Shown: in pieces, positions 7,191 through 64,000 of the stretch
Position numbering within the stretch: the stretch's first letter is position 1
Layout of the letters: each line of letters starts with the position of its first letter
Source of the DNA: Phytoseiulus persimilis
Lineage: Eukaryota > Arthropoda > Arachnida > Mesostigmata > Phytoseiidae
NCBI GenBank assembly: GCA_037576195.1
Contig: CM075101.1
Span: 7,750,001-7,814,000, forward strand
Direction of reading: 5' to 3'
Length of the DNA stretch: 64,000 bases
Made by a program: the position numbers and the translations under genes
The notes under the pieces: generated by a model
The model's input: only the letters and a program-made list of their open reading frames with translations
Told to the model about the DNA's origin: nothing
Database searches by the model: none

Positions 7191-7373
7191 GTGCGGGAGA
7201 GAGCCACCCGAACGAAACGAAAGTTCAGTCCCGCTAGAACGGCTTCAAGCACTCCCCTGTTGGGAGAGGAGGTTTTCGGGGTCCTGGATTTCGGGGTCCC
7301 TGTTTTCGGGGTCGTTTTTTCGGGATCATTCTTTTCGGGGTCATTTGTTTCGGGGTCGAATTTTCGGGGTCGT
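7191..7373. repeat. Right copy of the inverted repeat pair (TTTTCGGGGTC minisatellite)
   Basis: The reverse complement of this stretch matches 6420-6606. The words run as TTTTCGGGGTC with 2-6-bp spacers, about eight times, at 7270-7373. The 148-codon minus-strand frame over this tract translates to a DPEKTTPK-type low-complexity string. I read that as a by-product of the repeat, not a gene. Confidence 0.6.
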
Positions 7374-9285: not shown

Positions 9286-9751
9286 TATATGCGGAATAAA
9301 TTGGACGCCACCTGGAGAGACAGGATGGAGTCCAAATCCACACTGAGTACATACCGACGATACAAAGAGACTAGAGGAATCAACCCCGGACTGTACGATA
9401 ACTCCCGCGGAAGCCAGCTCTTAGCGTTAACCAGGGCAGGAATGCTGAACACCAAGACCCGGCAACACAACCGCGATTCCTCCATCGACATCAACTGTTC
9501 AAGATGTGGAGCACCCGAAACAGAAAGACACGTAGTCTTGGGGTGCGAGGAACGAACTTTACCCCCAGAGGAGTTTCCCTTCCGAATTGGACTCACACCC
9601 GATAGCAAACATGAAGTTCTGCGAAAGACGAAGGTGACCCTAACTAACTGGGAGCGGCAAGATCTGTGAACGCAATACGACTCACCCCTGGAATGAAAGG
9701 GACCATATGTGCATATGGAAGATCGAAATAAATCCAATCCAATCCAATCCC
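9286..9751 (+). mobile_element. 5'-truncated non-LTR retrotransposon, copy 1 (C-terminal end of ORF2)
   Basis: The open frame (about 9289-9669) starts in the region downstream of the reverse transcriptase. It carries YDNSRGSQLLALTRAGML, a block typical of arachnid 'tick transposon' proteins, and then a CCHC knuckle, CSRCGAPETERHVVLGC (C-x2-C-x7-H-x4-C). The frame ends at TGA 9667-9669. The 3' end is AATAAAT followed by three CCAAT units at 9727-9750. The reverse transcriptase and endonuclease are missing, so the copy is dead. The exact 5' border is unknown. Confidence 0.82.
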
Positions 9752-22640: not shown

Positions 22641-23475
22641 ATGCGGTCACAGTTATTTCCAAAACTCTGCAAAAGAAAATAACAACAGCCCAAACGGAGG
22701 CGGGGAGGTACGCTCTTGGTATCCCCAACAGTAGAGTGGCAAACGAATTCGTCACAGGAGAACTGGGCTGGTCTTCGTTCGAGGCGAGATAAGCCCAGAG
22801 CAAGACAAGATATTTCACCAGAATTAAGTCCATGCCTGACCATAGATGGCCGAAAGCCATACTGAACATGATGGATCTAACCGGAGTCGAAACAGAAGTA
22901 TATCGGAGAGAACAGGACTTACGCCGTGTATACAAGTGCGAAGACATCACACTGACGTACACGGAACTAGGTACACCTCTACATGGGATATTCAACAAAG
23001 CGATCAAGGAAAGGATACGCGAAACTGAAATGGCTAACTGGAGAAGCTCGATGAGATACAAAAGTAGCCTGACCCGTTACCGAACCCACACGACTGGAAT
23101 GGGACATAGAAACAGTCCATACGACAACAGTCGAGGTTCGGCTCTACTGGCACTGAGCCGAGCAGGTATGCTCAGGACCAGAGAATTCAGACAAAACTCC
23201 GAACCGGGATTAGATACCACATGCGTTAGATGTGGAGTATACCAGGAAACCCTGAGCCACGTCATCTGGGAATGCAACGAAATATACCACGAGGAAGAGG
23301 AAACACTAAATCGACTGGGGCTCGACGAAAACCCCTCCTCAGAGATGACAGGCCACACCAAGAGACTCCTACAGCAGTGGGAGAAAGAAACTACAAATAT
23401 CCGCTGAGGCAACTCGCCACTGAAACGAAAGTGTCATATAAACATGAGGATAAATAAATACCAATACCAATACTG
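22640..23475 (+). mobile_element. 5'-truncated non-LTR retrotransposon, copy 2
   Basis: One frame runs from about 22660 to 23407. It holds QTEAGRYALGIPNSRVANEF then TGELGWSS (end of the reverse-transcriptase region), RWPKAILNMM, YDNSRGSALLALSRAGML and the knuckle CVRCGVYQETLSHVIWEC. It is interrupted by one in-frame TAA at 22790-22792, where copy 3 has GAA (Glu), so a single G-to-T change broke it. The stop codon is at 23405-23407. The element ends ATAAATA plus ACCAAT-type repeats at 23455-23475. The catalytic reverse-transcriptase core is absent. Confidence 0.87.
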
Positions 23476-29202: not shown

Positions 29203-29285
29203 ATGGTTAGAGAAACCAGGCATCTCTGGGTCGGTAACCTTCCCGACAAAATCCGAGAAGAACACATACGGGACCACTTCAAACG
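29203..29285 (+). CDS. spen: Split ends (SPEN/SHARP) first coding exon, N-terminal RRM1 start
   Basis: ATG at 29203-29205 sits in a good context (GACCATGG). The 83-nt exon encodes MVRETRHLWVGNLPDKIREE then HIRDHFK, and ends AAACG|GTACGC in phase 2 within the codon for the next Arg. This is almost identical to the known SPEN start MVRETRHLWVGNLPENVREE..., including RNP2 (LWVGNL) of the first RNA recognition motif. SPEN is a large nuclear RNA-binding co-repressor with four RRMs and a C-terminal SPOC domain, acting in Notch and other signalling. The following exon (expected YGRVESVKIL-like) was not found anywhere in the remaining 34.7 kb. Confidence 0.93.
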
Positions 29286-41200: not shown

Positions 41201-41460
41201 TGTTTCTCTTTCTGCGCGTAATCACAACATTCGGTCGTGGAAGAGAGGAAGAAAGTTTGATGACGAACAGCGGCAGCAGAAAAACGGCGACGAATGTGTC
41301 CTGCCATTTCTGGCGGCCGGCGTTTTTCTTCGCTCCCTCCGTCTCGCCGCGTCGGATGGTGCTTCGGCGTTCTTCTGTGTTCGGCGGGTCGTTCGCTCGC
41401 TCGGTTGCTCGTAGGATGCTTAGTTTGATGCTGACGGTCCCGACTGGCTTCGCGTTCGCC

Positions 41461-41500
41461 GCTCGCTCGCTCGCTCGTTCGCCGCCGCCGCCGCTGCCGC
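41461..41500. repeat. GCTC tetranucleotide run followed by GCC run
   Basis: Four GCTC units (41461-41476), then GTTC, then five GCC-like units. Part of the SPEN-intron simple-sequence set. Confidence 0.8.
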
Positions 41501-41544
41501 TGCTAGTGATTCTGCCGCAGCTTTTTCTGTCTGACGATCTGTGT

Positions 41545-41580
41545 GCGAGCGAGCGAGTTGGCTGGCTGGCTGGCGGGTCG
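41545..41580. repeat. GCGA run passing into GGCT run
   Basis: GTGCGAGCGAGCGAG is followed directly by TTGGCTGGCTGGCTGGCGGG. The period stays 4 bp while the word changes. Confidence 0.75.
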
Positions 41581-41679
41581 GCTCGAGCTGTGCCGGGCTG
41601 TTTCGCTGGTTGATGACCTGACTGGCCGCGCACGGCAAAGCGGACGAGTCAGCCGGCTGGCTGTGAGGAGGATTCTCTT

Positions 41680-41703
41680 TCTAGCTAGCTAGCTAGCTAG
41701 CTA
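41680..41703. repeat. (CTAG)n microsatellite
   Basis: About six perfect CTAG units, each self-complementary, so the tract is also a palindrome. Confidence 0.85.
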
Positions 41704-44700
41704 ACACTAGCCATTCAACAGTCGGCCGCACGCCTCGCCAGCCGAAGAGCACTACATCTGAGCCATCATCTGAATCGTCGTTCCTCGGCGGCGCAGCTAC
41801 TGCCGGCATCGGTCGTCTCTCTGAAGATAGATGGATGCTGTCTTTCTGGCTGCTGATGTTGTTCTCACCACCACCTCGAGGGACACTCGATAACCGCGTG
41901 CTCGGCCACGCGGGAAGGTTGACGTCGCGCCTGTTGCTGGAACAGGTAACGCGGGACTGGGTTCGAGTGAACGTTCCCTCAAACCCCGACGGTTTCCGCT
42001 CGGAAACAGTTGGAAGCGAATCCTGAGCAGCCTCGACAGCCACGAGCGCGCAGACTGCGGTCGTTGCTTCGCAGCCGTCGTGGTTGCCCGACACGAGTGG
42101 TAACACTTCTGCTAATTGCGGCTCTTCTTGCTCGCCACGTCATTACGCCGCTGAGATTGTGTTTTTCTCGGGGCAGCTGGAGTCCGTCAGTCGGCGTGCC
42201 GTCGAAGTTTCGGTAAAAACGCCACCGCGGGAAGGACGGCTCCGGCCGTGCTGGAAGTAAGGACAAGGACAGCGCCAATTTTTAATAACAGCGACCGAAA
42301 TCAGCTGAGACGGAGAGATCTCCGAGATGCACGTCCCGTCGGTTTGAAGTTATTCACGGCGATTTCCGGACCAGCCCTCGAATCCCGAAGGCCGCCTCAA
42401 AAGTCAGTCAGAACACGATTCGCATCCTCCGAGCCCTGCACCGCCCCGCGGCTGAGCTCTCGAACCTCCTGGTGTCGAGTTCATCTCATCTCAATCATGA
42501 TGCGGTCTTCCAGGACCAAGGGGTGCCGGCTCGGGCGGCGCCGCGACCCGGGCCGGTGGCAGTAACACGAGAGAACAACAATAGCAACAATTGGGCGTTT
42601 AATTGCAGCGCCATCGACGTCGTGTCGACGCCAAACACACAGCTCACAATGATGAGGAGGATAGCGATGATAATAACTCACATTCTTTCCATTTACCCTA
42701 CCATCTGTCCGAACAACTATTGTTTCTGAGTCAGAACTTTCATCCTGTTCCACCGTTTCCCCGTCGTTATCTGATGTTTCCGCGCAACGGCGGCGTTCGG
42801 TCGAACGATTCTGTTCCGTCGATCAGTTCCAATCGTCGTCGTCGTCGAGAAGCTTCTCCGAGTCCGGGCGAACCTTGGAATATTCCGCTGGGGCTTCTGG
42901 AGTGGAGTTGCGGTCGGAGTCGGGCGGGCTCTCAATCGAGCTCCAGCGAAACGCGTCGAGTATATCGGATACCATGGTGAATCGGACGCGGGCGCGGAGC
43001 CAAAGCTCGTGCGGATAAATTCCCCCTGGCTCGCGCTTGCCGTTGTTTAATTACTGGAGATGTGAGGCCACGACCCGAACAAACTCGTTTCGTCTTCTAC
43101 TTGTTGTTCGTTATTCCGAATGGTCGGTGGCGTTCGCCCGGCAGCGTCGGCAGGTACTCTTCTCGTTTCTCGCCCGGTTCTGTCCGACCGACCGGCCGGC
43201 CGGTCGCTTCTTCTCCTCCTCGCCTGGTAACTTGACGTCGACGCGGCAAAGAGCAGGAGTTAGAACCGTCATCGCGAGTCACCGCTCCGGGTCGCCGGCG
43301 GGTCGACCGACCGAACGGCTTGCTTTTGCTTTCAGCCGCCCCTGAGATTGTCTCGACACGGAGCGTCGTTGGCTGAAAGCTCTTGTCCAGCCTTCCTTCG
43401 GTCCTACGTACGGCGACCCATTCTCAGCCGTGACTGGGTCGTAGCTGACCAGCGCTTGCACTTGTCCAGCGAGCCAGCGAATGACTGACTGTTTGACTGA
43501 GCGTTAGTCAGCCGATCTTTCGGCTTCGAGCAGAAGCAGTGAGAGCGACGTCGGCGATCGGGTTGACGCCGCTGAAATCCCACTGCGCAGTTGGATGATG
43601 AAATGTCGAATACTGTCGTTTGGGTCCGGCCGAGGGAGAACGAGCCAGGATCGGAGAACCAGAAGCTCACGCGCGCCTCATCAATTACTGCTCGCTCGGT
43701 CAGGATCGCACGCCAATCGATCGATGCGCTGGAGAGCTCCAATCCAAGCTGAATGAGCTCCGTGAGAATATGTAGTGAAGGAATGGCCGGAACTGGTCGA
43801 GAGGAAGGTCCTCCGGGAGCGACCAGCAGCAAAGGTCGCCCGTGACGTTTCCTGTAGTTCCCTCAGACCCACGAAGTGAGCGGCCGTGACTCCCCCCGCC
43901 GCGACCGTCCGCAACGAAAACGACAGTAACAAAGGGCGGCGATTACCGCGACAGGCAGGGTGAGTGAGTGATGTCTGGTGGTCAGACGGCATTTCGTGTA
44001 CCAAGGTACTGCCCAGCCGCGCTGTTTGAGCTTTCGGCAACGCTTTGCTCGATCGGACGATGTAGTATGTGGACAACCGTGGTGGGGTAACGGAATCAGG
44101 AGGTGTTGACGCAGAGCTCGCGGGGAGGACTCCGTGTACTGCGAGGAAAACGCGCGGCTCCCTTTCGGGAACTTTCTCGGAGCTCGGGCCGGAATCCGAT
44201 CGGAGCTCCAGGGCCGCTGCAAATGGTCAAAATCTCAAACTGATAGTTGTTCGCACTTGTCGTCGCTCCACTGATCGTTGTTGTCGTCGGATCGGGGACG
44301 CCGCACTGCGAGGCTCGGCGTCGGGTTCCCTCCATCAACGAACCAAATCTTCCCGAAGAGACGCCACAGCTTTTGGTGGCCGTTGCGTGGGACGTCGTCG
44401 TCATTTCCATAGATGTTGTTTTTGGTGCGTGAGCATGTAAACCTCCTCGGAATCGGCGATCTCAGAGCCGTATTGTGTTCATGGATAGTCGTCGCCGCTG
44501 TTGTTGTTATGATGACGGCTGATACTGCTGACCAAATATCGGGCCGACGTGGAAACTGCTGATGCTATTGCATCTAAGTGGGAATCTGATTGAGGCTCGT
44601 TCCAGTGTCGACGGCAATAGCAGCAGCTGCGGCAGCGTCTGCATGATGGTCGTTCTGGCGCGGGATTTCGTCGATCCAGATGTCGTCGTGCCGAAATGTT

Positions 44701-47450
44701 CCGTGCGTCCAATGAGGCAACGAAGCGTCCGTCGTTGGTCTTCTGCGTTGAATGCGCAACGGCTGCTGCCAAGGCTGAGATTGTATGTTTTGCTGTCGGT
44801 GAGAGGAGTTGATGGGAGGGATTTTCCACCGATTCTCCTCCAGAACAGCGTTTCGGGTCAGTCGAGGCAAGACCACCGACTGGATGGCATTTGTCGAGCA
44901 CCCTCTGCGCCGAATCTATCGATCGAGCTCGCGGTAAACCTCGGAACGACAGTATCCTCGATGACCTCCGCAATAAGGGCCGGTCCTGCAAGATGGTGGC
45001 GGGAGGTTTGCTTTCCGTAAACTCTGTGAGTGTTTCAGCTCTCAGGAACGAACATGTTTACGGAGCCTTTTGACCCGTTTACACTTCGGCTGGATGGCTG
45101 TCTGCTCGGCGACCGGTGGGATCGCTGTGCCGCTGCAATTGTCATCAGGAAGGTTCTGTCGGCGTTGGTCGAGCGCGTTCACGTTGGCTGTGCTGCCACG
45201 CCGTGTCGGGCCACGATGGTGTCACCGCTGGCGACGTTCGAAGCGTTGGCATGCCCGTAACGCATAAACGATCATGTACTTGCATCGAGAGCATTGTTCG
45301 AAATCGAAACAGGAGCTTCGATGTCTGTTTCGGTGGTTGGCCTTCTCGCTGAGAGAAGCCAGGGAATGAACGTCTTCCGATCGTGCGCTGGAGCGGCCAA
45401 GTGGAAGCCTAGAAACGCGCTTTCGATGTTGTCGCGACCGTCACGAGAGACCTCCTGCAGTCGAGGAACAACGGCACCTCGGTCTTGAGGAACGACACGC
45501 AGACCCCCAGGGAAGATTCGAACGAGATAGGAGGTAGGCGGACGGACAGTCGAGCGCCAGAGCTTTCCACATTGAACACAACAGCGACGACCCTGGGTTA
45601 TTTTCGTGAATAAGGTTGTCTAAGGCAGCGGCTGAGAATCATCATCAGATCCGACGGAGAAAGGGGAGCGATCTATTTTGGTTGCGTGAACATTTGAGAG
45701 AGCTAGTTCCATCATTAGTGACCAGACGACGGTCCGTGTTGATCTTATTGTGTCACGTTCTCTAGTTTTGTCGCCAGAAGCCTGAACGAGATCGGTGCTC
45801 GGCTTCCGATCCCGAGGGAACGGATCAAGACACGAGAAGCAGCTCGAGGTTGAACGTAGCGTCGCCTCGGTAGCTTCGTTGACGCTCGGGCAGAAAGGCT
45901 GGCTGAACCTGCCTGAACTCGTCCCGCGCTGCGGACTGTGGCCTATTGTCTCCCTACCGCGCTCGCGGAAAACCCAGAGGACTGTTGTAGTTATCGAGAA
46001 CTCGCTCGACATGTGGTCGCCATGTGGTTTCTTGAGAAATTACGCGGCCGTCACGAGGAATTTCTACGACACTCATGCTCCGAGCTGGCGCAGTTCCAAA
46101 TTCAAGTCGTAAAACAAGTTGAACGGATTCAAATTTTTGACTCTACGGGGAAAGAGCTGCTCTCACGGGGGACGATCCTTTGGGCTATTCAAAAGTATCC
46201 CTACAAATCTCACGTGACGCCCGCTCGCTCGCGGGACGGAACACGCCGCTGACCGACGTGGTCTTACGGCTGCCGCCTTTGGCTCAGCAAAGCACCGAAC
46301 ATGGTTCGTCAAGCGGTGCCATGATTCTGCAGCGAGGGCTAGACTTGCCCGGTCGATCCTCGTCTCGCTCGACGGTTCTCTCTGGAGCCGTCTTGCTCGA
46401 AGAACGGATTTGGACTCCGCGCTCGTTTGGCTTCACTTTCACGGCACGAACCATTTTCGTACGAAGAGGGGCTCGAGATCAGAGTTAGGAGGCTCCTGTA
46501 TCCCACCCCTTATATCGTACTCGTTCGAAGAAATCAGAATCAATAAGGGTAGGCCAGGAATCCGCTCGACACCCACTGAATCAGAGCGGCTTTCTTCAGC
46601 TAGTGGGCTTAGGTGTGTGACGGAGATCGCCGAGCGCTGTGGAATATCCCTCCGAGAACCTAGTTGTTGCACGGCCCGAAGCTGGTTCCGACTCCTCGTT
46701 TGCTAGACGGTGTTCTTCGAAGTTCCTAATAGACGCGCGGAGTGAACGCTCGATCAGAGAACCCGGAACCGTCACGAGATCCCCGTTTCAACTCCGATCT
46801 CCTTAGCACACAGCTGTTTGACCGTATTCCGAACAATCTGTCAGGAAAGAGGGAACGGATAGTGACGGATACTCCGTTGAAACGAAATGAAGGATGGCGT
46901 CTTACAGCATACTTCGGGAACCTGCACCGGCCCTCGGGAGGGCTCCGCAGGGGATTCTCGCGCAGTGAAACTGTGGATCAGCTGCGACTGCGAATATCAA
47001 ACACAGTGGCAAGACAGATCGCCGCAAGAACCAGTATGAAAAAAAGAGAGAACTCTCGAACTGCACCAAGCATTCGGGATGATTCCGTGGAGCTTTGAAC
47101 CGCTTTCGGCCTTGTGGGCCCATGTCAGGCTGAGAAATCCTCGCACGCTGTTGCGGTTCCTGCCGTAGCAGGTCCAAAACGGAGGCCGCGTCAGTCCAAA
47201 CTCCGAGCTGCCGCGAAATCCGGCTGGATTGTTGCTGCTCGAAGGCGGCCAACACGCGAGACCACGAACTCCGAAGCAGACGAGCGGGAAAGCTTCAAAT
47301 GAGCGAGTTAGGTGTTTGACTAGTTTGGGTGGTTGCTTGCCTGCTCGCTGGCTACTAGGTGGTGTCTAGGTAGAAAGGAAGGAAGCGGGCGACTCGCTAG
47401 ACTGGTCGGATATTCTCTCGTTCTTCCATTTGAGCTTCTATGAGTTGTTG

Positions 47451-47495
47451 GCGGGCCGGCCGGCCGGCCGGCGGGCGAGCGGGCGGACGGCCAAG
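47451..47495. repeat. GGCC/GGCG tetranucleotide tract
   Basis: GCGGGCCGGCCGGCCGGCCG runs into GCGGGCGAGCGGGCGGACGG. Perfect GGCC units are self-complementary. Confidence 0.8.
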
Positions 47496-47877
47496 CGGGC
47501 TAGCGACGACGATGACGACGGCGACGAGAGCGCAGCGGCGGCCAAACAGCATCAGCTTCTCACACCGCCATCACAACTAACGCAGCAGCGGGCAAGCCAG
47601 CGAGCGGGCTAGCGAGCGAACGCGCCGCCATCAGCCGAGTTCTGTGTGAGTGTTGTCTGTGAGTATGGAGGCTGGCTGGCTCTTCGGCAGGGCTGAGCCA
47701 GCGAACGAACGAACATGGCGAGCTGAGCTGGCTCGGCGATACCACTTTTAAGGCGCGGGGGACGAACACCGCGGACGCTCCGTATCGGCCGCTGCTGCTG
47801 CCGCCGCGCGGGAGCAGAGGCAGCCGCATAGAGAAGAACGAAAACGAGGGACGAACTCGGTCGGTATCGCCTTTTCA

Positions 47878-47935
47878 CCGAGCGAGCGAGCGAGCGAGCA
47901 AGCAAGCAGGCAGGCAGCTAGCAGGCGAGCCATCA
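47878..47935. repeat. Drifting tetranucleotide tract (GCGA to GCAA to GCAG)
   Basis: GAGCGAGCGAGCGAGCGAG is followed by CAAGCAAGCAGGCAGGCAG and then CTAGCAGGCGAGCC. The 4-bp period is kept over nearly 60 bp. Confidence 0.8.
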
Positions 47936-50900
47936 GCGAGCAACGACAGAGGCATCATGAATGCAGTTTTCTTTCTACGGGCTTTTTGGCCGACTGCTGC
48001 TTCTTCTCGACTATCTGACTGACTGACCAACTGACTGACTGAGTAAATTTCAAAACGAATAGTCAGTGAGCGTGTTCACGCGACGGGAATCGAGAGAGCA
48101 CTAAGGCATCCGCATCAGGCATCCCTGTCTGGTTCATCCGATTTTCCAGCCAATCCGGAGCCGAGGAACTCGGGTGGAGGATCATGCCCGCTCAGAACTC
48201 TCCCTGGAAGGGTGCGAGTTCCGCGATTGGTTATTGCTTTGGGTCTTCATTGGAACAAATCGGGGATTTGTGTACCGGATCCCGAACTAGTGTTTCGTTC
48301 ACTCTGGTGAACGAAGCGTTCGCACGTGCACATCTCGGTCAACTCTTCGACGTCGTCGGCCAGCGGGAACATCGCAGCAAGCAGAAAACGCGAGAAACCG
48401 TCGCCATCCAGAGCTTTCTATCTCTGTACGTGTTCCTGGGAAAGATTTCCCTCGTCCCGTATCTTATCGATCAGTCCATCCTTTCGGAAAATTTCTCTCG
48501 GGGGATACATCATTCAAGTCAGGCTGCATCTCGAAGGAGCTTCGACTGTTTATCGGTTTTATCGACTCGATGCCGGCGGTTCCGAGAGAGTCTCCGTCAC
48601 ACGAAGCGCTGTTTGCAGTGAAGAGCCTTAGCTCAGACGAGAGTTTCGGTGATTTCGCTTCGAGGGATCCTCGTTTATTGACCTGGACGCGACTGGCCTC
48701 CACGAGTTGACGTCCTCTTGCCATAGATGCAAATCCTCGCGGGAGACTTCCTCCGTTCCGAGGAGATACTTCCCTCTAGACGTGAGACCATGTTGTAGGT
48801 TTATCAGCTAGATGATTGTCGGCGTGTCGAGGAGCTTCGCTCCCGCGAATACCTTTGTTGTTCTCGTGCTATCTTTGTTCGCTCACTCGTAATCTCACGC
48901 TAGGATCTCCTTTCTTCTTCTATTCTGGAGTTTCGAGAGTGAACGAGTTCGTTCAAGAGCGAGGGACGGCGTGGAAGGGTCTCGTTGGAGGAAATATTAT
49001 TCACCAGATGAAAAGCCGTTCAAGTTCTCGTTGGATTCGGGGATTGAAGTGCTGGAACGAGCTCTGGAGTTCCCTTCGAGGGACGAGTGGGTATATCGAT
49101 GCCTCGGCTCAGCGAATCTTCTTGAGAAACGTTCGCGCGCGTTCCATTCACTCGTTGAATCTTCAGGAGAGAGGAACCTTTGTTCCGAGATCGCTTCTCA
49201 TATTGCTGGTGGCCGATCCACCGCTCCAGTTGTTGTTGTCTTCGGCAGCGGCCGAAGTGGGCTTGGTGGGCTTTCGATGAGGATCTTTCTTCCTCCTTTT
49301 GTTCCGATTGCCCCCTCCCCCGTCCTCGGAGCAAGAGCACACGAGCAGCTTCTTGTGTAACGGAACAAAACGCTCCCTTCCCTGATCGCTGTTTTTGGAT
49401 TCGAGATCCCAGATAGGTCTCTCAGGGCGGGGAATTCCGCGGCTCTCAAAGAAACTCTTGGAGTTTCTATTCGACGGCGGGACTGTCAGCTCGGCAACCT
49501 GCTTCCGAGAGCTCCAGAGCCGCGGAGAGAAGCGGCGGATCTTGAAAAAAAACGACGAGGGAGATGACTGAGACGACATGCGACGGCGTTTGGTCTCTCT
49601 CGATGTCGTTCCGTTCTTTAAGAAAGCTTGCCGACGTCGCGCTCCCATGAAACCCTGCAGAGAGAAGAACCACCGCTCGGGAAACGAAGGGAGACGACCC
49701 AATTTCCCACCCCGCCTTCCGCTTCCTTATGGTGAACCCTTACGGCCGCGCCAAAAACGCACGCTGTGCTGTGGAAAAACTCACCGTCGAGGCACGTAGA
49801 GAACTTCGATACTGTGTGTTCGGACCGGCATGCGCTCATTCAATGCCTCCACGCCTGCCGAAGGTCGTCCAGTCACTTCTGTCGTTATTTCTTCTCAATG
49901 GCGTGAGGTGGCCGGACGTTGTTCTTTGTTTTGGGATGAACCTGAGTCGGAGCAGAATCGGGTAACGGTCCTTACCAGGGGTTGGAGTCGCCTGCCTTCG
50001 GTCGGGACGGATGGAGAACTTCTCAGATGTATGAAATATAAGAATGTCTTCTCCGTCGTTCCATCTCGGCGTTGTTCTCTCCGCTGCTTGATGTGCCTCT
50101 GCTGCATTCGGAGCTTTTCTCCATTCGTTTTCCCTCTTAGCTGTTTCTTGGCGACCGGACGGTTTTTGATATGAGATGTTCGCTCGCTCCCTGAGACAGA
50201 AGGCTGCGACAGGAACAAGAGGGAAATTCAGCGAGCGAGATACGTTTGGAGGAGAGACCGCGGGAATGCAGATGAGCTGTAACCTTAGGGCGCGCGCGCC
50301 CGGGGATGTGCGATCAGCCGGCGTCGAGTCATCATCTACGTAGAAGCCGCGGTTGAGGCGCTCGCAAAAACGTTCCCAAATGCAAAGTTCGCAAAACGAG
50401 AAATTATGTGAAGGAGCCGAGCGGGAGACGAACATGAGAGCACGGTGTAGCATGAATGTATTGTATGTATTCTTGGTATTTCGCGAAGGTTTGTCGAGGG
50501 TTCAGAGAACGACGCCCGCTCCACGAACCAGTCATTATCCCCCCGCTAGAGACCGAGGTTCTCGAACTTCACGGGTTGTACGGATCAATCGTTGTTCCGG
50601 CCGAGAGTCGAAACCGTCGTTAGGTCAGATACAATAGATGGCAACAAACTCATACTGAATGAGGAAAAGTTCAGGATTCGTGAATAGAGGGCCGGTGCTC
50701 GCAGGCCTGAACTCGTTACCACGTGCAGCACCTCGGCGTGTTTGGAGTTCTTCGAGGTATTTCAGATCAGTTTCTCCCGAGTTTTCGGCCGGATCGGGTT
50801 CCAACCTCGGTTCAGGCCTCGTCTGGAAACGATACGTATCTCGTATCCAAAGTATGGACAACGATACCGGAGGCGACCCGCAAAAAAAAAATTGGCGGAT

Positions 50901-53120
50901 CCCAGCTTCGATGCTTCGGCGGATTGTTGAAAAGCATTCGTCGGGAACCAAAGCTAGGCCCGACAGACCGCTACAGTTTGTTATCGGATATGAGAGACTG
51001 TCGTGCCTAATTACATTAAGTGTGCTGTTTCTCGGATCCTTTATCTCTTCGTCTGCCTTCCTGGCAGTTATATAAAGCGGCCGCCCGCTCGGCCGGCCCC
51101 AAAAATCGGGCCATTCAGCGGTCGCTCGTATCAGCAGCTTTACAAACTTTTTCCTTTTCTCTCTCTAGGAGGGAAGATGTCGAGTTGATGCGACGCTGCT
51201 GTTGACAATCTCTGAAGAGTTATCGGGCCGTCAAGATTAGCGTCGTCGACACTATTCACCAGCTCTCTCAAACGAACGCTGCGCGAAACCGGAGATAGAT
51301 CGCGACGAGCGAGATCGGGCCGACGTCGAACTTTGCGAAGGATTTTTTTCCCCCGGATGTCCCTTCGACTAATAAGCCCTCCAGGATGTCGAACTTCGAA
51401 ATGACGCTGTCACTTCAAACTCGTCTCGTCTGCCAGAGGTCGCTCCCGGATAGCCGTCTCACGGGACGCCTCTTCGGAGCTCGCGGAGGTCCTCCGGTTG
51501 CTCCGGGCGGGTTTCCGGAAGCCTCCAAGCGGAGAATTTCATTCGAGGGACCCTCTCTGAGATCGGGGAGCGAGCGGGGACGCGGGATTTTTGAAACGGC
51601 CTCGGCCGCGAGACAGCAATACTTCGACTCCACTCGCCTCAGCTCGTGACAGCCTACACCTTACGTGCGGCCGATCGAATCGGAACGCGGCCCTTGTCCG
51701 ACTAGCGATTTCTCATGGAAGTGGAATCCGAGTTTGGACGGTCGAGGCTGAGAGTCTTGCTGGGGAGGGAGCCGTCCGGCAACTAAACGTGTCCTCCCAG
51801 CTGTCTTAACGATGTCGCACGACGTTAGAGAATTGAGCGATATATACGGGAGGAGTTCGGGTGGAGTCCGTGCCATCCCACAGGGCCCGCTGGCTGGAGC
51901 CATCTCGGCCGGAGTCATCACGATTGCGAACGCCTACAACTCCCTGATGATGTTTATGCGCATTGCGCGTTTGCTCTCTTGTGGCTAACTAATTGTGGCG
52001 CGAATTGTGACTGAGAGTCATTACGGACGGGCTCGCTATTGTTTGATGAACCTGTTTTCGAGCACAATTCGAGCAGAGATCGTTGTTCACCAACCGGAGC
52101 AGCGATCCTTCAACGAGCAAGCTGACCAGCTCGCGCATCCCCTTCTTGTTTGACCTCCGTGGCGCCGACGTTACGCTAGTCGAGTGATTCTCAGACGGCT
52201 GACGCGCTCCGACGGGTCAACTCGCATTGGGTCCATTTGAACGAGAGGCTAGAACGACTCTGAAGGTCTCAGATGTCGATCGTGGGATCTACGGGGGTCG
52301 CAGATCCATCAAGACACGAACGGTGCACCTTCTAAACGAGGTTCCCGGGAGATGTTCAGAACAGTCGAACGGGGACCCCCTTTCCGGCGGGTGCCATCGG
52401 TCCCTGAAGTTTCCATCGTTGTGCTCCCTCTAGTGGGCCGTGACGAGCTTCGACCTCTACTGATATAGTGGGTTCGATATTAGCATCGGGAGCAATCGTA
52501 CGCAAGGCCAAGAAAAATAGGGTCCTCGCTGCGATGGACAACTTCGCGAACTCGACAACTCACGCGCATCTGAGCTATGTATGCACAGATGAATGCAAGT
52601 TATCAACGGGGAGAAACTGCTGCGCTCGGTACTTTGTTGAACGGCGAGCTCCTCATTTTTCTTGATGATGCATGGAACGGCGGACGTCGGGATAGAATAA
52701 AAACGTGGTACCGTCTTAGCGATCGAATCAAATGCCTGGGAACCGTTTGCGTGTTTTTTCAATTCAACTTTTAACAATGTGTTTTAATTGGTTCTACTCC
52801 GTGAGGGACCTTCAGGTCTCGCTTCATAGTTTCCGAGAAAGGTCCGCAAAGCTGTCCATTGCAATCTGCGGACGCTTGGAATGTTACAGCACAATACGAA
52901 ACAGCTCAATTTATTAATTTATCTTACTGGTCCATTCATGGAAGGACGCGTCGGAAGCCAGATAGCAGTGCGTCACGCGTTGATTGATTCAATGATTGAT
53001 GAATTGATCGAGAGGAATTCATGATAAGATTAGTCGGTCCTAAACGGAACAGGAGTTGGACAGCTCTCGGCTTCCACGACGCGCTCGATATAATCAGTCG
53101 AATGCTTTCAAACTCAATTT

Positions 53121-53152
53121 CCTAACGTGCCCTTCTTTCGTTTCCAGGTAAG
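53121..53152 (+). promoter_or_regulatory. spen: Candidate recursive-splice (ratchet) site
   Basis: CTAAC at 53122-53126 looks like a branch point. It is followed by a pyrimidine tract and TTTCCAG|GTAAGAG, with the junction between 53147 and 53148. An acceptor fused to a donor with no exon between them is the hallmark of recursive splicing in long arthropod introns, and it lies in sense inside a >34-kb intron. Chance occurrence is possible. Confidence 0.5.
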
Positions 53153-56100
53153 AGCTACGAGTATCCGTACGTAAAAAACAGATCGGTCGTGTGGAGAGCC
53201 ATGCTTTTCCAACGCTGCTCGGATTTGCGGACACGCGATGTTGGCAAGTTGTGCTCTGATGGGGAGAATGACGAATATGGGTGTTCTTTCCGTTCCGTTC
53301 GAACCGAAGACGGGGTCACAACTGGTCCTGGAAGCCAACGAGTTGAATTTCGATCCATCAGCGGGTGGGGAAAGAAGAGGGACCTCAAACTTGAGAACTA
53401 CAGTTTCCCCAACGAACTTCCAAGAAGGAAGCGCAGACGATCCTTGCAGGTGGGGGTTCGCACCACACTCAAGGAAGAATTCCATGAGAGTGAACGAGAC
53501 GCCCGTTCCGATCTGTCTCTCCAATCCGTTTCAATACACCGTGGAGCCAGCCACAGCTTTGATTTCGTCCCATGAGGAGACGAGAGAAATTGGATCGGGG
53601 TGGACACTGAGGAATGGAGAATAGATCGTTGGATTGGTTCTCTGATTGGATTTTGTCCGCTGAACGGCAGGAATCTTGATCATGCAAACTCGAATTGCTC
53701 AACCATTCAAAGAGGGGCCCCGTTGTGGAGACGATAGATCTCGCTGCGGCGGAAGAGACGTCTCCATGCCGGGATCCGAGCCAGTCTTGAACATTCCATC
53801 GATTGTACCATATTCCCCTTGTGCTGTGTGCACAACTCGCGTCATCCGAGATACTTCTTTTCTCTCCCGAACCAAATCAAGGGAATATCTGCGTTGAGAA
53901 GACCTTGGGACTGGTAGAACACATTCGACGTATTCTCGGCGGCCTTCCCCTTGGAATATTCTCGGGCTGCGCAGACGCCCGACGTAGAGGGGAGGAGAAC
54001 GAAAGTACTGTCCGCCAAGTGCTTTCGATTCTCTGCGTGGCGAGCGACGCAGAAGCGGTTTCGCGAGAGCTTTCATGCTCGACCGCGTGGTTTTCGCGGA
54101 GTCTGTTTCGCTCCTCTTCTGTGCGGGAACAGCGCGTTTCCATTCAATGTGGAACGAAGCTACAAACTAGCTTCGTCGTTGTGAGCTGATGTCAATGCTG
54201 CTGTAGCTTCCGCAGCTGTAGACGTGTTCTGCGGCATCGCTCATGCTTCTCGTGTTATTGTTGTTCATGCAAATGCTGATGCAGGAGTCGTGCTCGTTGA
54301 TAACAAATTGAGTATTATTGTTGTTGCTGCTGCTGCCGCCGCCGCTGTTATTCCTCTCGCCGCGGCTCTGGCGGCATCAGCAGTAGCGATGCGGTTGTTT
54401 TCCACCCAGCAATGCGGCGGTGACCGCGGCAAAGCAGAGCAGCCGTTTTGTCCATAAAGAGTCAAGGAATGACTTTCTGTTGGCGTTTCTCAGCTGCTAG
54501 CCACGCACATAATAGCGACGGTCAACAACGACTAAACCAGAGAAGAGCGAGGGATTTTATTCGGCTCTCAGTCGACCATCCTGAACAACCCCGATCTTCT
54601 GGCGGCGTTGTATGCGAACTTCTCGACGAATCAAATGTCGTTTCGTCAACGAGAGACAACGAGCAACTACTATGGCAGCGGAGATGAACCAGAACCACCG
54701 GCAGTCAGAAACCAGACTCTTTGGGCGAGAGCAACGATGGGACGCGAGTGCGTCGATTACTGGTCGCTTGAAAGTAGCGGAGTCCGAATCAAGGAAAGCG
54801 ACAGTTCCTGATCAGGAGCTGCTGGGGCGAACCTTGCGCGGGACGTTCGGCATCACGGGAAGACCTCTTGATCCGTAATCACCTGAAACCTTTCCTAATG
54901 CTTTGATGGTGTTCTGGCTAGTTTCGTTCTGGTGATTACGCTGCTCATCGGTGCTCCTTCCGCTAGTAATGCTCTTGTGTAGGCTGAATAGCTAGCGAGC
55001 GAGCGAGGCTTGTAATTATGTTTGCCGGGCTCGGCGGTCACTCACTGGCTTTCCAAAGCTAGCTAGCCAGGTAGCTGGCGAAGCAACCGACCCACCGGTG
55101 AATCAGCATCGCGAATCATTACCGCGTTTGGCAGCGCCAGACCAAAACAACAACAAGCTGGAAAGATAGAAACAAAGAACGAGCGAAGTACGAGCTGATC
55201 GGATCATAGGTTACGCGCACCAACCGCTCCACGAAAAACGAGCTCCGGTGAGAAACGCTTGTCCGCTATTCTCACAGGAGGTGATCGTGATCGGAGTCTG
55301 GATGGTGAACACTCGCTCTAAAGTGTTGGGACGGGTTTCTTCCGCGTGAAACACGCGCCATGTCTTTCCACACGTCGCTCCAAAATATCGATGTGTCTGG
55401 ATGAGCGGCGAGATCACACCACGAGACCTCCCCCTTGTCCATGTGTTCTCACTCCTTGTAACTTCAAGATTCCCAACGTGAGAAATTCACGTAAAAGTGG
55501 GGTGGGGGCTCTGTGTCGACACATGCGACTGGGTTCGGGCCTCAGAGAAAGTGTTGGTAGAACAGTGATTTGGTAGGCCACCTTTGGAAGGTCAGCCGGA
55601 GCACGTTCTCGAGGCTCCAGTGAACCAGACCGTTCGTACAGGCCTCCAAAAGTGACAGGAGGGATCAGCTGCATTGCCAGAGTCGCGACAGATTCGAATC
55701 TGAGGACCGGCGCCACATACCTAAGTCGAAGGAGCGATGCCAAGCGACGAGGACCGCCGACGCAATTTTTCCCTCTTTTGCATATGTGCATCAGCTGCAG
55801 AATCCTGTGTTATTCTTCTGTGTCTTGCTCGTGTTCTGAGCGAGCGAACGCGGGTCGTCCATAGCTCGCTCGTTTCGTTCTGCCATGCTATTCCTCCATC
55901 CTCGACCCTTCCGTCATGACGGCCACGAGCGGAGAAGAAGTTGCTCTTCTTCTAATTCTTCGTCAGCTGCTGCCGCCGCAGCTGCTTGTTTCTCCACGCG
56001 CGCAGACTCGCATGTCCGTAGCTCGGACCCGGCGGTGGATTTCTGCTTCTGCCGGTCCATCTTCTGCAACCACGGATGCTGCTGCTGTTGTCGTGGTCGT

Positions 56101-56339
56101 CGTTGACGTCGACAACAACAGCTTGGTCGTTGGCAATGCCGGTGCGTCGACCTCCGCTGCTGCCGAAAGTGCCGAAACCACTTCTGCTCCAGCGGCAGCA
56201 ACGAACGGGCGAACGAAGCAACCATCCGACCAACCCTAGCAGGCAGCTCTGCGCTCTTTCTTTTTTGTTGCCGCTGCTTGGCTGAGTGGTCAGCGATGCT
56301 CTTCTTCTGCGTCTTGCATTTTCTGCGGACTGGTTCGTC

Positions 56340-56405
56340 CGTCCGTCCGTCCATCCATCCATCCAGCGGTCGGTCGGTTGGCTGACTGGTCAGACAGACT
56401 GTCGG
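56340..56405. repeat. GTCC/ATCC/GGTC/GACT tetranucleotide tract
   Basis: GTCCGTCCGTCCGTCC is followed by ATCCATCCATCC, then GGTCGGTCGGTTGGCTGACT. The period is 4 bp with successive word changes. Confidence 0.8.
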
Positions 56406-57911
56406 TCGGTGCTTCGTCTCGTTGTCGGCCGCGGTGAGGGAGGAAAGGCTGCTTGGCAGACGGACAGGCCGCAGAAGGAGACGCTGCGAGCGATCCAACT
56501 GCTGCGTTTCCGATGATTCCGTTCTTGTTACGCTGCGGTGGGAAAAACACGAATCGGACTCGAGCTCCTCGTTTATGAACGGCTGCGCTCGCTGTGCCGG
56601 CAGTAGGAATTGTTGTCGCCTGGTCGTTCTTCCAACCCTCCCGCTTCACCTCCCCCCGGCCGACGTCAACGAAGCTGAACATTTCTGTCTTGTTTTGCAA
56701 GACTGACTACCGTCGACGTAACCCAGTACTCATCCGACTCATTTGATGATAATGATGGCCGACAGGAACTCCGTCAATCATGATGGCTACCCTGAAGACG
56801 ACAATGCCACCGATGTTAACGATGAAATCAACAAAAAGTAAAACAGGGACGACGTTGCTCGAGTAACAATGAGCGCATTCTCTGAAGTTGATGGCTTCGA
56901 GGTCAATCGCAATGTTTTGGGGCTTTGGCGGTTTCTGCTGTTCTCAGATATCTGGCTCGATTCTTTGTCGCTCCTATCTCAACAAGTTGGACTTAAGGCT
57001 CGAACTCTATTGTATCATCGAAATCACGCGAGGCCCGACGAGGCGAGCGAGCGTGCGCGCGTATGCTCGACGGTCCCGCCGGATTGGTGGCTCTGTAGCA
57101 ACCGCGCGTGATGTTTTTTCTCCTTTATCATCTAGGCCGGAGACCGGTCTTGTCGGCGTCGGACGCCTCCTTCAGCAAACTGGTTCTCCCGGGCTCTGGA
57201 AGCAGCAACAAAGAGATTGGGTGGAAAGCAGAGGTGTAGTGCCGGTTGCATCATCGACGCTCGCGATCGAATCAAGCCGGACTAGTTTTAGATCGGCGAA
57301 TTTGAATAATAATCCCAAACTCTCCCGAAGAACCAGCTCGACCGGCCGCGCTGTTTAGCAGCCAGAAAAGTGAACGACGATGGACTTGTAAGCTAAGGAG
57401 GTATCGACAATCCGCCGCATGACGCTGAATCGATAAGAGCTTGTCCGATAGTTGACCAGGTCTGTGATGCCTCCAGCGGACCGGGAAAATCGGTCGACGC
57501 TGGCGGTGTTGCATACGAGAGGAGGCGCCCCAGTCCTGAGCCCCTAACGTGCTGAATGGGCTCAGTTGTGTTTTACCTTCGTTCTTCGCGAGCACCTCAC
57601 GGCAGCGGGCGGAGCTTTGCTCGTTCTGCGTGCTCGTGACCCAGGCGAGGGGTTGTTGACACAGCGGTCAACCTTGTTGGAGATCACCAAAATGTTTCTC
57701 GAACACACGAGCGTTAATAAGTGAAGTGCATGTTCTCTTTTCCCTTTCGCTCTGTTGACGTCTCATGATCACGCATGGTTCCACGCGAATTTCGGAACAA
57801 GTTCGGACATGTTCCGAGAGCCAGAACACTAAACGAGCAGATAAATCGATTTGAGGTTGTTTACTATGACCCCCGACTGAGCAGCGACATTCTTTCGGAA
57901 CAGGAGAGGGA

Positions 57912-57924
57912 GGGGGGGGGGGGG
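57912..57924 (+). repeat. Run of 13 guanines
   Basis: A homopolymer flanked by GAGGGA. It is prone to G-quadruplex formation and to sequencing-length error. Confidence 0.9.
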
Positions 57925-60900
57925 CATACCCAACCCGAAGTGTCTCGCGGAACGAGCCCTGAGCGGGATCCATCTGGGGGGATGAAGGAGGACCGCGCTC
58001 TTTTTCCGCATCTCTCTCCGGATGATAAAAGCTACATCGAGGAACTGAAGTCAGCTCGAAACTCAGCTGGCTCATATCGATCGAGTTTTCCTGAGAACGA
58101 ACTTCGGTTCCATCGAGCAGTTCTCCTGGAGTTTTTTTGTTGATCCGAAACCGAGGTCCAGCCCATTTCCCCGACTACGCCCGACACACTGGATCGAAAT
58201 CAGTGTTCTTCGAGCTTCCAGTCGGGCACGTACGGCCCGAGCGTAGCCGACGTTCGCTCGTGGATTCGTGGAGCCGTCGCCACAGCAGCGCGGTGTATAT
58301 GTTTCACCCCGCCATCATTGCTCGATCCATCTACGAGCTGCATTCAGACCCACACAAGCGGCGAGCTATGGTTTGTGGTTCGAGCTCGACGTAATCATAA
58401 ATTCTAATGGCCATCATCATACAAGGCGGATGACATCGTAATAGGCGCGGCATGACTGCCTTTCGTTACCACGCCAAGCCCGGGCCTGAACAGCTCTTGA
58501 ACCCATGCTCATCGGATTTGTGCACACATGCCATGTCTTGCGGCGTACGATCTCCCGGATGCGTTCCCTCCAGCGTTCCGAGACAGCTGAGGCCACCACC
58601 GCACGTTTCGATATCCGGCTAGGGTTCCGCAAGGTGAAGCTCTCGCAGTAGCTGTTCTCCGGATCCGCCGATTCTAAAATCTGAATCACCGCTGACGGGG
58701 GAGCGGGGACCCCGTCCGTCGAATCGGAAAAGCCGCCCAGCCGGATACGACGACGCTGACGAGCTTGAATGGACTCCAACGCCAATATTTTTATGTGTCA
58801 TCCAGGAAGTTTATGCCCAGCATCGCAATATGGATGGAGATGACCTTGGTCGTTGAACTTTTCGCAGCAGACCAAGCGAGCCGCCGTCGCCGTCGTCGTC
58901 GGCGGTGGAACCACTTCAACGTTATCATTTATCGTGGCCGGCAGGCCTCTCGGAAAGAATCGAAGCTGACGATCTCTCATATTCATCGAACGTGCTTGCG
59001 AGAACGGCGGAGGTTCGAGAACTTTCCGAATTCGAGGGGCGAATCGAAGACTCCGAGTGTTGTCCAGCTCGCTTAGTCGACATTAATGGACGGCGAGCGC
59101 TATTTGAACAGACCGAACACAGTTCGCGTGAGCGATTGCCGATTCGGCGCGATCCGTGAATTCGTCCCTCAGCCTTGAAGTGGGAGCCGGCTCCGCGGGC
59201 TGGATTCGACTCGGATCGATATCCGCTGATGTCGGTCGAGGCTGCTGAGTATCCTCAACCACCGAAGACGGCTTCTTCTGCGGCCGTGGAGCGGCTTCCG
59301 AGCCAACATTTACTGGAGTTCGGAATCGCCCAGGGTTCGATCATGCCGGATCCTCTCTCTGACTCCCCGCTCGCGCTGAACTCGGTGCGGCAATCTCGCA
59401 ATGACGAGTGATTACTCCAGAAGCGAGTGGAGCCCAGACCGTCTACTGCGTCTACAGCTACTGCGTCAGAACCGGTGGGGGCTCCAACAGAGCGGCTCGC
59501 TGCTTCCACGATTGGACCAAGAGTGGGAATCGAGGAACCGAGAGTAGGAAATCGGATCTCGGAGGAAGCCCGCATCCGCAATTTGCTCCCATCAAGCGGA
59601 ACAGCTCATCAAGCGGCGAGGAAGCACTAACCTCACGAGGAGAAGTTGGGGACAATCAGCGGAACACATTCGTTCGCGTGGTTTTCCAGACAATCACCAA
59701 GCTCCTGGCCTGCGTTCTCTCCCGATGTTTTGTTGCCACAGAGCTGCGAACGGTAGCAGTGGAACTCTGCGCTAGGGGACAATCCAGAAGGATTCTCAGA
59801 AATCTGCGGAAATATCTCCCCAGGTTTTCGGTGCTCGCCGGCGCCGGATATCAACGAGAATCCTCCGTCTGGAAGTCCCGCTCGTCGAAGAGTCTCATTT
59901 ACTTCTCCGTAGAAGGCCGTTCTGAGGCTGCTCTCGGAGACGGACAGAAAATACCGAGTGTCACGTTCGGCATCACAGCGTTGCCGTAGACGCATTATAA
60001 ATAGCGTCGCCGCTCGATAGACACGGTAGACGGTCGCTTTGAGATTAAATAGAGCGAAAATGTCATCGGCGGCTCAGCTGACGATTCTCAATGAGAGTCA
60101 GGGCGGTGACACACCGTTTTCGGTGTCATTCGGCTTCTCCGCCAAATCGAATGTCGATTCCCCGAACTCGATGTGAGTAAGACAAGCCGTTGTTTCATCT
60201 CTCGCTGAACCTCGTCGTCCAACTCGTCCATGGCGAATTGTGCCAACGACCAGTCGTTGGACCGGTCGTCCCCGCCAACGCCATCGATACTTTCTGATAC
60301 AATATTCGCGCCGCTTGGAACGAGCGAGGCTAGAAGCGCAGAGAGTAAACCCACACAGGCTTTTCTATCCCACACAGACACGGGGGAAAAGATACATCAT
60401 TGACGTTTCATCACGTGATGACAATATTTCCCGGCAGTGGCTCGAGGGAGCCGGACGGGGGCAAGACGCAGGCTTCAGCGGAAAGGGAACTCGGCGCACA
60501 GGGCGTACCAGGCCTGGGGGATCGGGTCTTTCGGAAGGGCGGCGGAGAAGGGGGGAGCAGATAAAGAGCCCTAGGGAAGGGGGCGCATGTGAAAGAACCC
60601 TCGCCGACACTGGGACAAAGGACGCAGAGAGAATATAGCATGGCGGAAAAAAGGATGCCCTTCTCCGTTGGCTTCATCCTGAAAGGGACGTCAGAGGGAC
60701 GACCGGAGGCAGGCTACGTCAAGGGGACGACCGGCGGCGTCGGGGGAGGGGGACGAGGAGGCAGTCAAAGGGAATACGGGATGGGCTGGGTGGAAAGAGA
60801 GAACGGACGGAATCGGGGAAGGGAACGTTCTTCCCGATGGACGTTGTTGGGGTTATCTTGTGTGCGGGTCCTGACGGCCCTCCTCCTGCTCCTCGGACCC

Positions 60901-61280
60901 TTTCCAGGACGACAGCCAATGCGGAGCTTGCCCCCTCTGCAGTAGGCACCAGTGGCCAATGAGAGCCGGGGCCCCGGTGAGGGTCGACGCTAAAACATGA
61001 AAAGATTCTTCGACCGGCCCGCTCGGGGGGCCGGTCCTGGGCGCTGGCTCGAGGCATCGGAATCGGGGGACGGCGGCGAGAGAGAGGAAACCGGGAGCCT
61101 GCAGAGGGACGTCGGGGACGCAAGCGGACGGGTGGCCTGGGGATCGGGGGACGAGTGAGTGCTGCTGGCGGTGGTGGCGGTGCAGCAGCAGCAGCACCAG
61201 GCCCTCCCTTGCGCTAAATTGCCGCGTGGTCGATACCACCGACTGCGCCAAGAGGGACGAACGCACAGGAGTTGGTTGGC

Positions 61281-61395
61281 TTGCTTCGTTGGTTTGTTCG
61301 TTCGTTCGCTCGCCCTGCTCGGATGGTCGGACGATCTATTTTCGAAGGAGAACGTTGCTGCTGCGAGCCAGTCAGCCAGTCAGCCAGCCAGCTCG
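61281..61395. repeat. Two tetranucleotide tracts (TTCG/GCTC and CAGT/CAGC)
   Basis: TTGTTCGTTCGTTCGCTCGC lies at about 61300-61319, and GCCAGTCAGCCAGTCAGCCA at about 61363-61382 with further CAGC words. Both keep a 4-bp period. Confidence 0.75.
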
Positions 61396-64000
61396 CACAG
61401 AGACAGACTCACTCACATGGAGAAAGGGGACCAGCGCCGCATTGGCACTGCTACCATCAGTAGCGAAGGAAGAAGAAAGCCTTTTCCTCTCAACCAACTC
61501 TGGTGGTGGAGGCGCTTCTTCGTCGACGACGATCCCTTCCCTCAATGGCAAATACGACCACTATCGCCCATAAACACGAACGTCAAGAGCCCGGAATGAT
61601 CTTTGTATGTTTGCTGAAAACAGTTATGTAATACACGAGGTACAGAGCAATTAGCGCTGTCGTGCATCTCTTGCATCACCCTCACTTAGGGCTGAGAAGC
61701 TTTTCGAATCGGACTTCTGAGGGAACGAGCGACGGGTGCCAGATGATGTTGTGAAAACTAGCGATGTCCTACGTTACGCTATTTTGCGGGAGATGTAATT
61801 CCTTAGCACATGCGCTTACCTGATCCGGGCTGCTCCATCATAACTGAGGACGGGCATTAGGAGACAGTATGATGATGGCGATCCGAAAGATCACATGAAA
61901 AAGGGCCCACGGCACTGACGCCGGAAACCTGCCCTGTATCAACAACTACGAAGACAGCAACATCGAACGTGGCATCGACAAGAGCAACAATATTATCAGC
62001 ATCGGTTAACGACAACGGTCTGCAGCTTTTGCACGATCAAGTTATGGACATTATACTTGTTTACCGTTGGTTTTGGTAACTGCTGCAATTTTGAGGCTCC
62101 CTGCGGAAACGCTCCTCAATGCGTGATGCTCGTTGATTAATTCGGGCGCTATCTGAAAGCTTTAGCTTGCGTCAGACAGAACCTCCGATGTAGAACTATC
62201 CCGTCCCGGGGGACTCGATTTGAGAGGAGCATGCATCTCCCGCGAGCAGACATACTGTTTTCGGTCGGTTCTGAAGGTGGTCGGGTCTTGCGCGAAGGCG
62301 GAGAAAGACTGGAACCGAGGTTGCCGGAGCCCGAACCCTGGCCACTTTCGCTCTCGTTGTCCTAGCTTTCCGGCTTCGTTCTCCCTCTGAAAGCCCGATT
62401 GGAATGTTCGCTGCAGCCGATGCGGGTGACACGGCTGCCCGAGAGAGACGCGGTTCGGCAAACTCGATATTCAAGCTCTCTCCGTCTGAAACCGGGGAAA
62501 AGTTCCATTTTTTTTCTCCTTCGGTAGAACCGGCAGCGGCTGTCGCAGCAGTGGCGTCCGTGTTATGACCACGGGGCGCGCAAAGCACAAAAACATCCAG
62601 ATGGTGGCTCATCCAGTCGGGTGAGCTGGCGAGCTAGCCAGCCAGACAATCACTCACAGCCAGCTAGATACGCTCTCCAGCGATCGTAGAAACAGCAGCA
62701 GTACTGCGCAAGGTTCAACTGAATTCGGGATCCTAGTCTGTGGACTACGTTCTCGAGCGCTGCCCTCTCGTGTCAGTTGGCAAACAGGCAGGCAGGTGGG
62801 CACTTCGCATGCTCTCTGGACGTTTAGTTCCGAGTTCACGGAGAGGGAAAGAGACCGCTCGAGAATCCCATGTGGATAAAAATGTGTTCCGGTAGGTCGA
62901 GTGCGAAGGCTCGTTCCAAAATCGAGCAAACTGTCTCCTTCGGAGGCAAAGAGCATTCTCTGGAATCGTCACCCGTCCTCTGGCAACCCAAGTCATACTG
63001 CCGCTGAGTTTATCAGAGTCGGCTTGTTGCCAAAGATCGATTTATCCGACGAGCAGGAAGAAGTCGCTTGAGTTTTCTTCATCTGGAAAAGAAATGAACG
63101 GACACCTCTGCACGGGGCAGGGGAACGACCCCGAACCCTTTTCTGTCCGGTGACCTCAGCAACAGCCGGCGGTCACGGCGGCGCTCAGTGAGGCTCGTCA
63201 CGATTCGGGCTTGAGGGGATCCGCCACCGGTCATTCCGGCTGACTTGGGATGTCCCTCAATTTTGCGCAACCAGAGTCCTTCGAACGGGATCGCGGACGA
63301 TTTTTCTGATTCCGAACCGACCTCGAACCGCTTCTCGACGGAGTGTTTTTTTGTCCGGCGCCAAACGGAAGCGAGCGTTCTGTTGTGCATCGTCCTGGGG
63401 GTGTGCGTTTCCAGAGTTTCTGTAATCGTGGAAGTATGTACGTATGCACTCTTTCAGACCGCACAGCTCATAATTGCCAGCCTGATGTGCGTCGTGCGGA
63501 GTCTAGTTCGTCAGAATGTGGCCGAATAGCTTCGTTCTCGACGTCATAATAACTACAGAAGTCCGCCGGCCGTCGGGAGAGGGCTTTCAGAGTCAGCGCA
63601 ACGACGGAGACTCGGGGAGTTGAGCAGTGATTTGCACCCAGGATCTCGGTGAACTGGAGCAAGGGTGTGATCTCAGTATAAACGGCCGCAAGCTGCACCA
63701 TGAGACACTTGACAGCCCTTTACGATGCTTTCTAAATTTAGTTTAAGACGTTATCAGCAAACGCAATCATACTTCCTGTGTGGAGTCGATTCTGATTCAT
63801 CGGCAGACCACCCGCATTTTATTAGCAAAGTAGCTCTCAAGTAGGAGAACGCGAACTCGGACGAGATGCGACTCGGCGATGGGGCTGTATCATCGAATCA
63901 GCGGAGAACTCTTAGACTTAAGAGTTCGGATTGGAACCGATAGGGAAGAGCCGCTTTGCAAAGCAATGATATTCGCAAAGCTACTGATCTGCTGCGGCGT

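Follow-up and report, generated by a model that had tools for sequence, protein, structure and literature searches.

Does the first coding intron of spen in the mite Phytoseiulus persimilis contain an intronic ratchet point, a zero-length exon for recursive splicing? A first-pass annotation had proposed one in the window, by which we mean the whole stretch of 64,000 nucleotides analysed here, and we consider it probable that the site is of this kind. The properties that are testable from DNA support the proposal: the host is spen, the site lies in sense orientation within a 35.1-kb first coding intron, the motif is complete and unique in the intron, and similar sites form tandem series in the genome. 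The features of the locus are collected in Table 1, in which, as in the text, a slash marks a splice junction.

Table 1. Sequence features of the spen locus, in window coordinates.
Feature	Position	Strand	Remarks
Coding portion (83 nt) of spen exon 1, which encodes the N-terminal half of RRM1	29203..29285	+	tblastn; weak RRM_1 match
Host intron 5' splice site ACG/GTACGC, weak donor	29286..29291	+	U1 duplex -4.3 kcal/mol; normalised donor score 0.805
Part of host intron 1 (spen) inside the window	29286..64000	+	exon 2 and acceptor found past the window
Branch-point-like CTAAC	53122..53126	+	A at 53125, 22 nt upstream of the last acceptor base
Pyrimidine tract, 18 bases, without internal AG	53127..53144	+	direct reading
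Putative ratchet point CAG/GTAAG	53145..53152	+	acceptor 53145-53147; regenerated donor GTAAGA from 53148
Candidate cryptic RS-exon donor GTACGT, would give a 19-nt exon	53167..53172	+	weaker than the ratchet donor

The host gene and its intron

Exon 1 opens with an ATG at 29203 and encodes the peptide MVRETRHLWVGNLPDKIREEHIRDHFKR. A SPEN RRM1 query matched it at 79% over a 29-residue tblastn alignment, which extends 4 bases into the intron, and the match to RRM_1 is weak (18 against 20.7 bits, just below the Pfam cut-off). We examined 60 kb past the window end to locate exon 2. Its first bases, G-TAT-GGC, follow an acceptor ending in ...TTCTTTTCCAG, and its start lies at extended coordinate 64377 (G000:C1:7814377). 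This exon completes the R codon in frame and continues RRM1. Further downstream on the same strand, RRM3/4 are encoded in an open frame of 4184 codons (4184 aa); Spen is a giant protein, and a long open frame is as expected.

Given that exon 2 begins just past the window, the host intron runs from 29286 to 64376, a length of 35,091 bases, and ends 376 bases beyond the window. The candidate site splits it into segments of 23,862 and 11,229 bases. The first-pass annotation had named spen as the host and placed the site in its sense orientation within a very long intron. Both statements hold: the two exons join RRM1 in frame on the plus strand, and the intron is the first coding intron of the gene. 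The GC content of the window is 48-59% in 2-kb steps. Exon 2 itself begins with GTATGG directly after its pyrimidine-rich acceptor, a donor-like exon start.

The composite splice motif

Direct reading of the plus strand at 53122-53152 gives CTAAC, a C/T-rich tract and CAG/GTAAG, so every element that had been claimed for the site, in the sense of the host, is in place. The acceptor/donor junction falls between 53147 and 53148, and the next base, position +6 of the donor, is A and not T. There is no AG between CTAAC and the acceptor CAG. CAGGTAAG occurs twice in the whole window, once on the plus strand, at the ratchet candidate, and once on the minus strand (61822). We found no stable local structure at the site (z +1.1; equalled or surpassed by 177 of 200 shuffles), and the candidate is not buried in stable structure. 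No exact 23-base copy was found in viral contigs, a result that says little on conservation.

Strength of the site within the window

We scored AG/GT composites with a generic metazoan splice matrix and normalised the scores. The site scores 0.884, the highest of 326 AG/GT on both strands of the window; the runner-up reaches 0.843 (minus strand, 6031) and the antisense maximum within the in-window intron is 0.764. These values agree with the earlier statement that no other equally good site is present in the intron. The second composite of the window, at minus-strand 6031, reads CAG/GTGAGG, and no host gene is established for it.

By the same matrix, the acceptor half ranks 2nd of 2158 AGs in the in-window intron and the donor half is among the best 12 of 2000 GTs. 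Without the matrix, the donor has the strongest U1 pairing among 2001 GTs of the in-window intron, by a score that is blind to the pyrimidine tract beyond CAG. The tract preceding the site has the highest pyrimidine content among 604 CAGs of the in-window intron, only seven of which are preceded by CTAAC at -45 to -13. Simulated introns reached the score of the site in 2 of 2900 cases (1/300, 1/1000, 0/1000 and 0/600), and the juxtaposed AG/GT core with its pyrimidine tract is thus stronger than chance would give. Loose matches to the consensus, with at most two mismatches, show no enrichment in the window (8 found; shuffle mean 5.7; 25 of 100 shuffles had as many). As these weak matches are not enriched, the evidence lies in the strength of one site and not in a surplus of weak ones.

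Same-strand series of composite sites in the genome

General use of ratchet points would be expected to leave same-strand series of composite sites in long introns. In the assembly (181 Mb in 127 contigs, four of them large), the pattern Y7NCAGGTAAG has 75 sites that form 10 adjacent pairs within 41 kb, with strand agreement in 10/10 and members at least 9.8 kb apart. Chance would give 1.25 pairs, and 0 of 4000 random placements had as many as observed. Scrambled-donor controls remain near chance: GTAGA has 43 sites with 1 pair (0.37 expected), and the first 100 of the 123 GAATG sites give 5 pairs, 4 of them on the same strand (3.1 expected).

A second list, based on the CTAAC pattern, holds 53 sites with 5/5 pairs on the same strand (0.64 expected). 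The 40-kb cut for pairs was picked after these five pairs had been seen and was then applied to the Y7 list, where 9 pairs lie within 40 kb and 10 within 41 kb, all on the same strand; at 60 kb two opposite-strand pairs are added, one of which is L061/L062, a pair of repeat copies. Since the CTAAC and Y7 lists have sites in common, they are not independent. Their union comprises 113 sites with 15/15 pairs on the same strand (2.95 expected), one of them at 7.8 kb, and 28 of the 113 sites belong to 13 same-strand series, in which adjacent sites are separated by 8-41 kb. This spacing is wider than we would expect of neighbouring exons, and the same-strand tandem pattern is the arrangement to be expected of ratchet points in long introns. 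A G at -8 keeps the spen site out of the Y6, Y7 and Y9 lists, and it was picked up by the CTAAC pattern.

Raw counts of composite sites show no excess over every control (Y7: GTAAG 75, GTAGA 43, GAATG 123; Y9: GTAAG 38, GATAG 15). We dropped them as evidence because the exon-like control 5-mer GAATG is commoner than GTAAG.

Tandem and single sites compared

There are 118 Y6 sites; among the 100 listed, 59 were compared by letters: 19 tandem sites and the first 40 single sites by coordinate. Sites L005 and L006, five identical repeat-like sites and the tandem sites on C4 were left out of this comparison, and the single class includes the repeat copies L061/L062. Features that had not been used in choosing the tandem sites differ between the classes. 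CTAAC is present in 6/19 tandem sites, against 1/40 single sites and 7/604 control CAGs, and an AG in the exclusion zone occurs in 0/19 tandem and 6/40 single sites. The looser branch-like motif CTNAY is found in 11/19 tandem sites, 9/40 single sites and 74/604 control CAGs; with no AG at -20 to -4, the counts are 10/19, 8/40 and 26/604. Pyrimidine content at -20 to -11 is 0.68 in tandem and 0.55 in single sites, and composite scores are higher in the tandem class (Mann-Whitney P 0.0017), with 8 tandem and 5 single sites scoring at least as high as the spen site. The flanks of the tandem sites are not mutual copies, with one 31-base match among them. At +6, the tandem donors (L015-L033) have C in 10/19 and T in 5/19. 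In ordinary homeodomain-intron donors (L075-L094), counted by eye, T is at +6 in about 17/20, and 8 read GTGAGT.

The hosts of the other composite sites were approached through recognised domains (homeobox, RRM, Ig, kinase and ion-channel; 384 places from 619 matches, neighbours merged by hand). Relative to the nearest such domain within 50 kb, one list gave 8 sites on the same and 4 on the opposite strand, and the other 2 and 3, a mixed outcome. Coding segments in the 10-kb stretches around the tandem sites, three of which were run through Pfam, gave MBTPS1 as the sole identification, an exon about 3 kb from tandem member L017 and on the opposite strand. Tandem member L031 resembles, by eye, an ordinary exon end. 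Between the members of the pair at C1:25.29/25.33 Mb lies a same-strand Ig-domain exon, an arrangement compatible with a single gene but not with a single intron. These three cases indicate that the tandem set is not pure and that not every pair lies in one intron; we regard the set as mostly, not wholly, ratchet-like.

A proposed model for recursive splicing of spen intron 1

We infer from the arrangement of the motif that the spliceosome uses the site, in two ordered steps. U2AF and U2 would recognise CTAAC, the pyrimidine tract and CAG. Exon 1, ending at 29285, would then be joined to 53148, freeing a 23.9-kb lariat and recreating a donor, ACG/GTAAGA. In the second step this regenerated donor would be spliced to exon 2 at 64377, the remaining 11.2 kb would be removed, and no trace of the ratchet point would be left in the mRNA. 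The computed U1 pairing of the regenerated ACG/GTAAGA is -8.2 kcal/mol, against -4.3 kcal/mol for the original ACG/GTACGC.

Donors further downstream could compete with the regenerated one. Candidate RS-exon donors at 53167, 53171 and 53189 would give exons of 19, 23 or 41 nt. The ratchet donor has a normalised score of 0.934, against a maximum of 0.886 (GTACGT at 53167) within 250 nt downstream, and a U1 pairing of -11.0 kcal/mol, against -1.9 to -3.1 kcal/mol for the three downstream donors (GTACGT -3.1). Since these donors are weaker, skipping of the RS-exon is predicted as the rule under the donor-competition model for Drosophila, as set out in the part of PMC8605326 cited here, which also mentions cases unexplained by donor strength.

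Alternative explanations

A random AG/GT in a 35-kb intron might score well and never be used. The lack of excess among loose matches would fit such an accident, as would the weaker 0.843 site at minus-strand 6031 with no known host. Some genome-wide matches must also be random, CTNAY being found in 9/40 single sites against 11/19 tandem sites (controls 74/604). Yet only 2 of the 2900 simulations reach the score, donor strength, pyrimidine tract and branch motif all peak at one place, and the antisense maximum is 0.764, all of which makes a chance origin unlikely. The motif might instead be borne by a transposon, or be a duplicated splice module that did not evolve in the host. L061 and L062 are near-identical, 50 kb apart and on opposite strands, so a repeat does carry the motif elsewhere, and CTCTTCTCAGGTAAG is listed five times among like sites. 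Around the spen site, however, no direct or inverted repeat of at least 14 bases was found within 52600-53700, and its flank is unlike those of the other sites compared (the opposite-strand sites L001, L003, L005 and L006 being outside the comparison). We regard this origin as exceedingly improbable.

The upstream half might also be an ordinary acceptor, whether it served an unannotated or alternative exon starting GTAAGA or an RS-exon of 19-41 nt kept in some mRNAs. The rank of the acceptor (2nd of 2158 AGs in the in-window intron) suits an exon, the matrix rates GTACGT at 53167 as a fair donor (0.886), and a 149-aa open frame at 53126-53575 spans the site. That frame has no Pfam family, though, and the overlapping frame at 53175-53624 gives a weak Pfam match far under the cut-off. 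The tested downstream donors pair poorly with U1 (-1.9 to -3.1 against -11.0 kcal/mol), and an exon opening with the strongest U1 site of the intron would seem an odd accident. An exon at this position is thus very unlikely, and we favour the ratchet point.

Comparison with known systems

There is ample documentation of recursive splicing in Drosophila, and of another form of it in vertebrates; for other invertebrates, the papers cited here offer sequence statistics alone. Intronic ratchet points of Drosophila include those of Ubx, kuz, Bx, Ten-m and mgl (PMC8605326, PMC6110457, PMC8906543). According to the sections cited from PMC6110457, recursive segments in Drosophila measure about 9-15 kb, first introns are enriched, and 63% of introns over 40 kb have a high-confidence site. 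As described in these sources, Drosophila sites resemble the spen site in having a branch-like motif, a pyrimidine tract and NCAG/GTAAG on the sense strand of a very long first intron. The spen ratchet donor is likewise predicted to be stronger than the donors downstream, and the sites of this genome likewise form same-strand series with spacings of the same order. In contrast to Drosophila ratchet points with junction reads or sawtooth coverage, the spen case is a prediction from DNA. It also differs in its +6 base, which is A (C in 10/19 tandem sites) where the published fly consensus has T (GTAAGT), and in that the intron has one site and no series, with a first segment of 23.9 kb, longer than the usual 9-15 kb.

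The nearest precedent in terms of sequence statistics comes from mosquito, bee, beetle and sea urchin, in whose large introns RP-sites have been predicted from sequence alone, with ratios of sense to complementary strand of >>10, 4.0, 8.0 and 8.2, respectively, in the portion of PMC2773006 cited. The motif logic is the same; that work relied on annotated genes and on introns longer than 50 kb, whereas we used one 35-kb intron and strand-tandem clustering free of annotation. In the model for the human brain, each RS-site acts together with a short RS-exon that brings a further, competing GT, and fly and human sites differ in composition, as stated in the text cited from PMC5126111. The spen site is like these human sites in joining an acceptor to a donor within a long intron, and unlike human RS-exons in that the downstream donors scored are weak. 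Among the open-access papers searched, judged by title and the first lines of the abstract, none deals with recursive splicing in ticks, mites or other chelicerates, and none came up that links it with 'split ends'.

The type of site is thus known from Drosophila, and what is new is the taxon and the genome-wide tandem pattern. As RP-type sites were already predicted in mosquito, bee, beetle and sea urchin, at least in the material cited from PMC2773006, a chelicerate case would be an extension and not a surprise. We lean slightly towards the view that this genome uses ratchet points widely, given the 28 of 113 sites in 13 same-strand series, with donors that favour GTAAGC where the fly favours GTAAGT. 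If so, recursive splicing of long introns would be a trait common to arthropods and perhaps older. The spen intron would be a clearly resolved case of it, with a ratchet that in addition swaps a weak exon-1 donor for a strong one. Together, a resolved chelicerate candidate and an annotation-free signature, same-strand tandem composite sites, would allow direct tests, by ordinary RNA-seq in any arthropod with a sequenced genome, of how old ratchet splicing is.

Other features of the window

A nested gene in the intron was considered and rejected, as no Pfam family at or over the cut-off was found in the 11 intron open frames tried, of many more. Scans of the window for Rfam families and tRNA genes gave no hits. 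Two plus-strand open frames, at 9220-9669 and 22793-23407, match zinc-binding reverse transcriptase weakly, under the Pfam cut-off, and are probably retroelement remnants. On the minus strand, an open frame at 11850-12461 has a weak fibronectin type III match, also below the Pfam cut-off, and perhaps belongs to a receptor gene that lies upstream of spen and is encoded on the other strand. Short tandem repeats with a GACCCCGAAA-like unit are present at 6425-6527 and 7273-7375, in both orientations.
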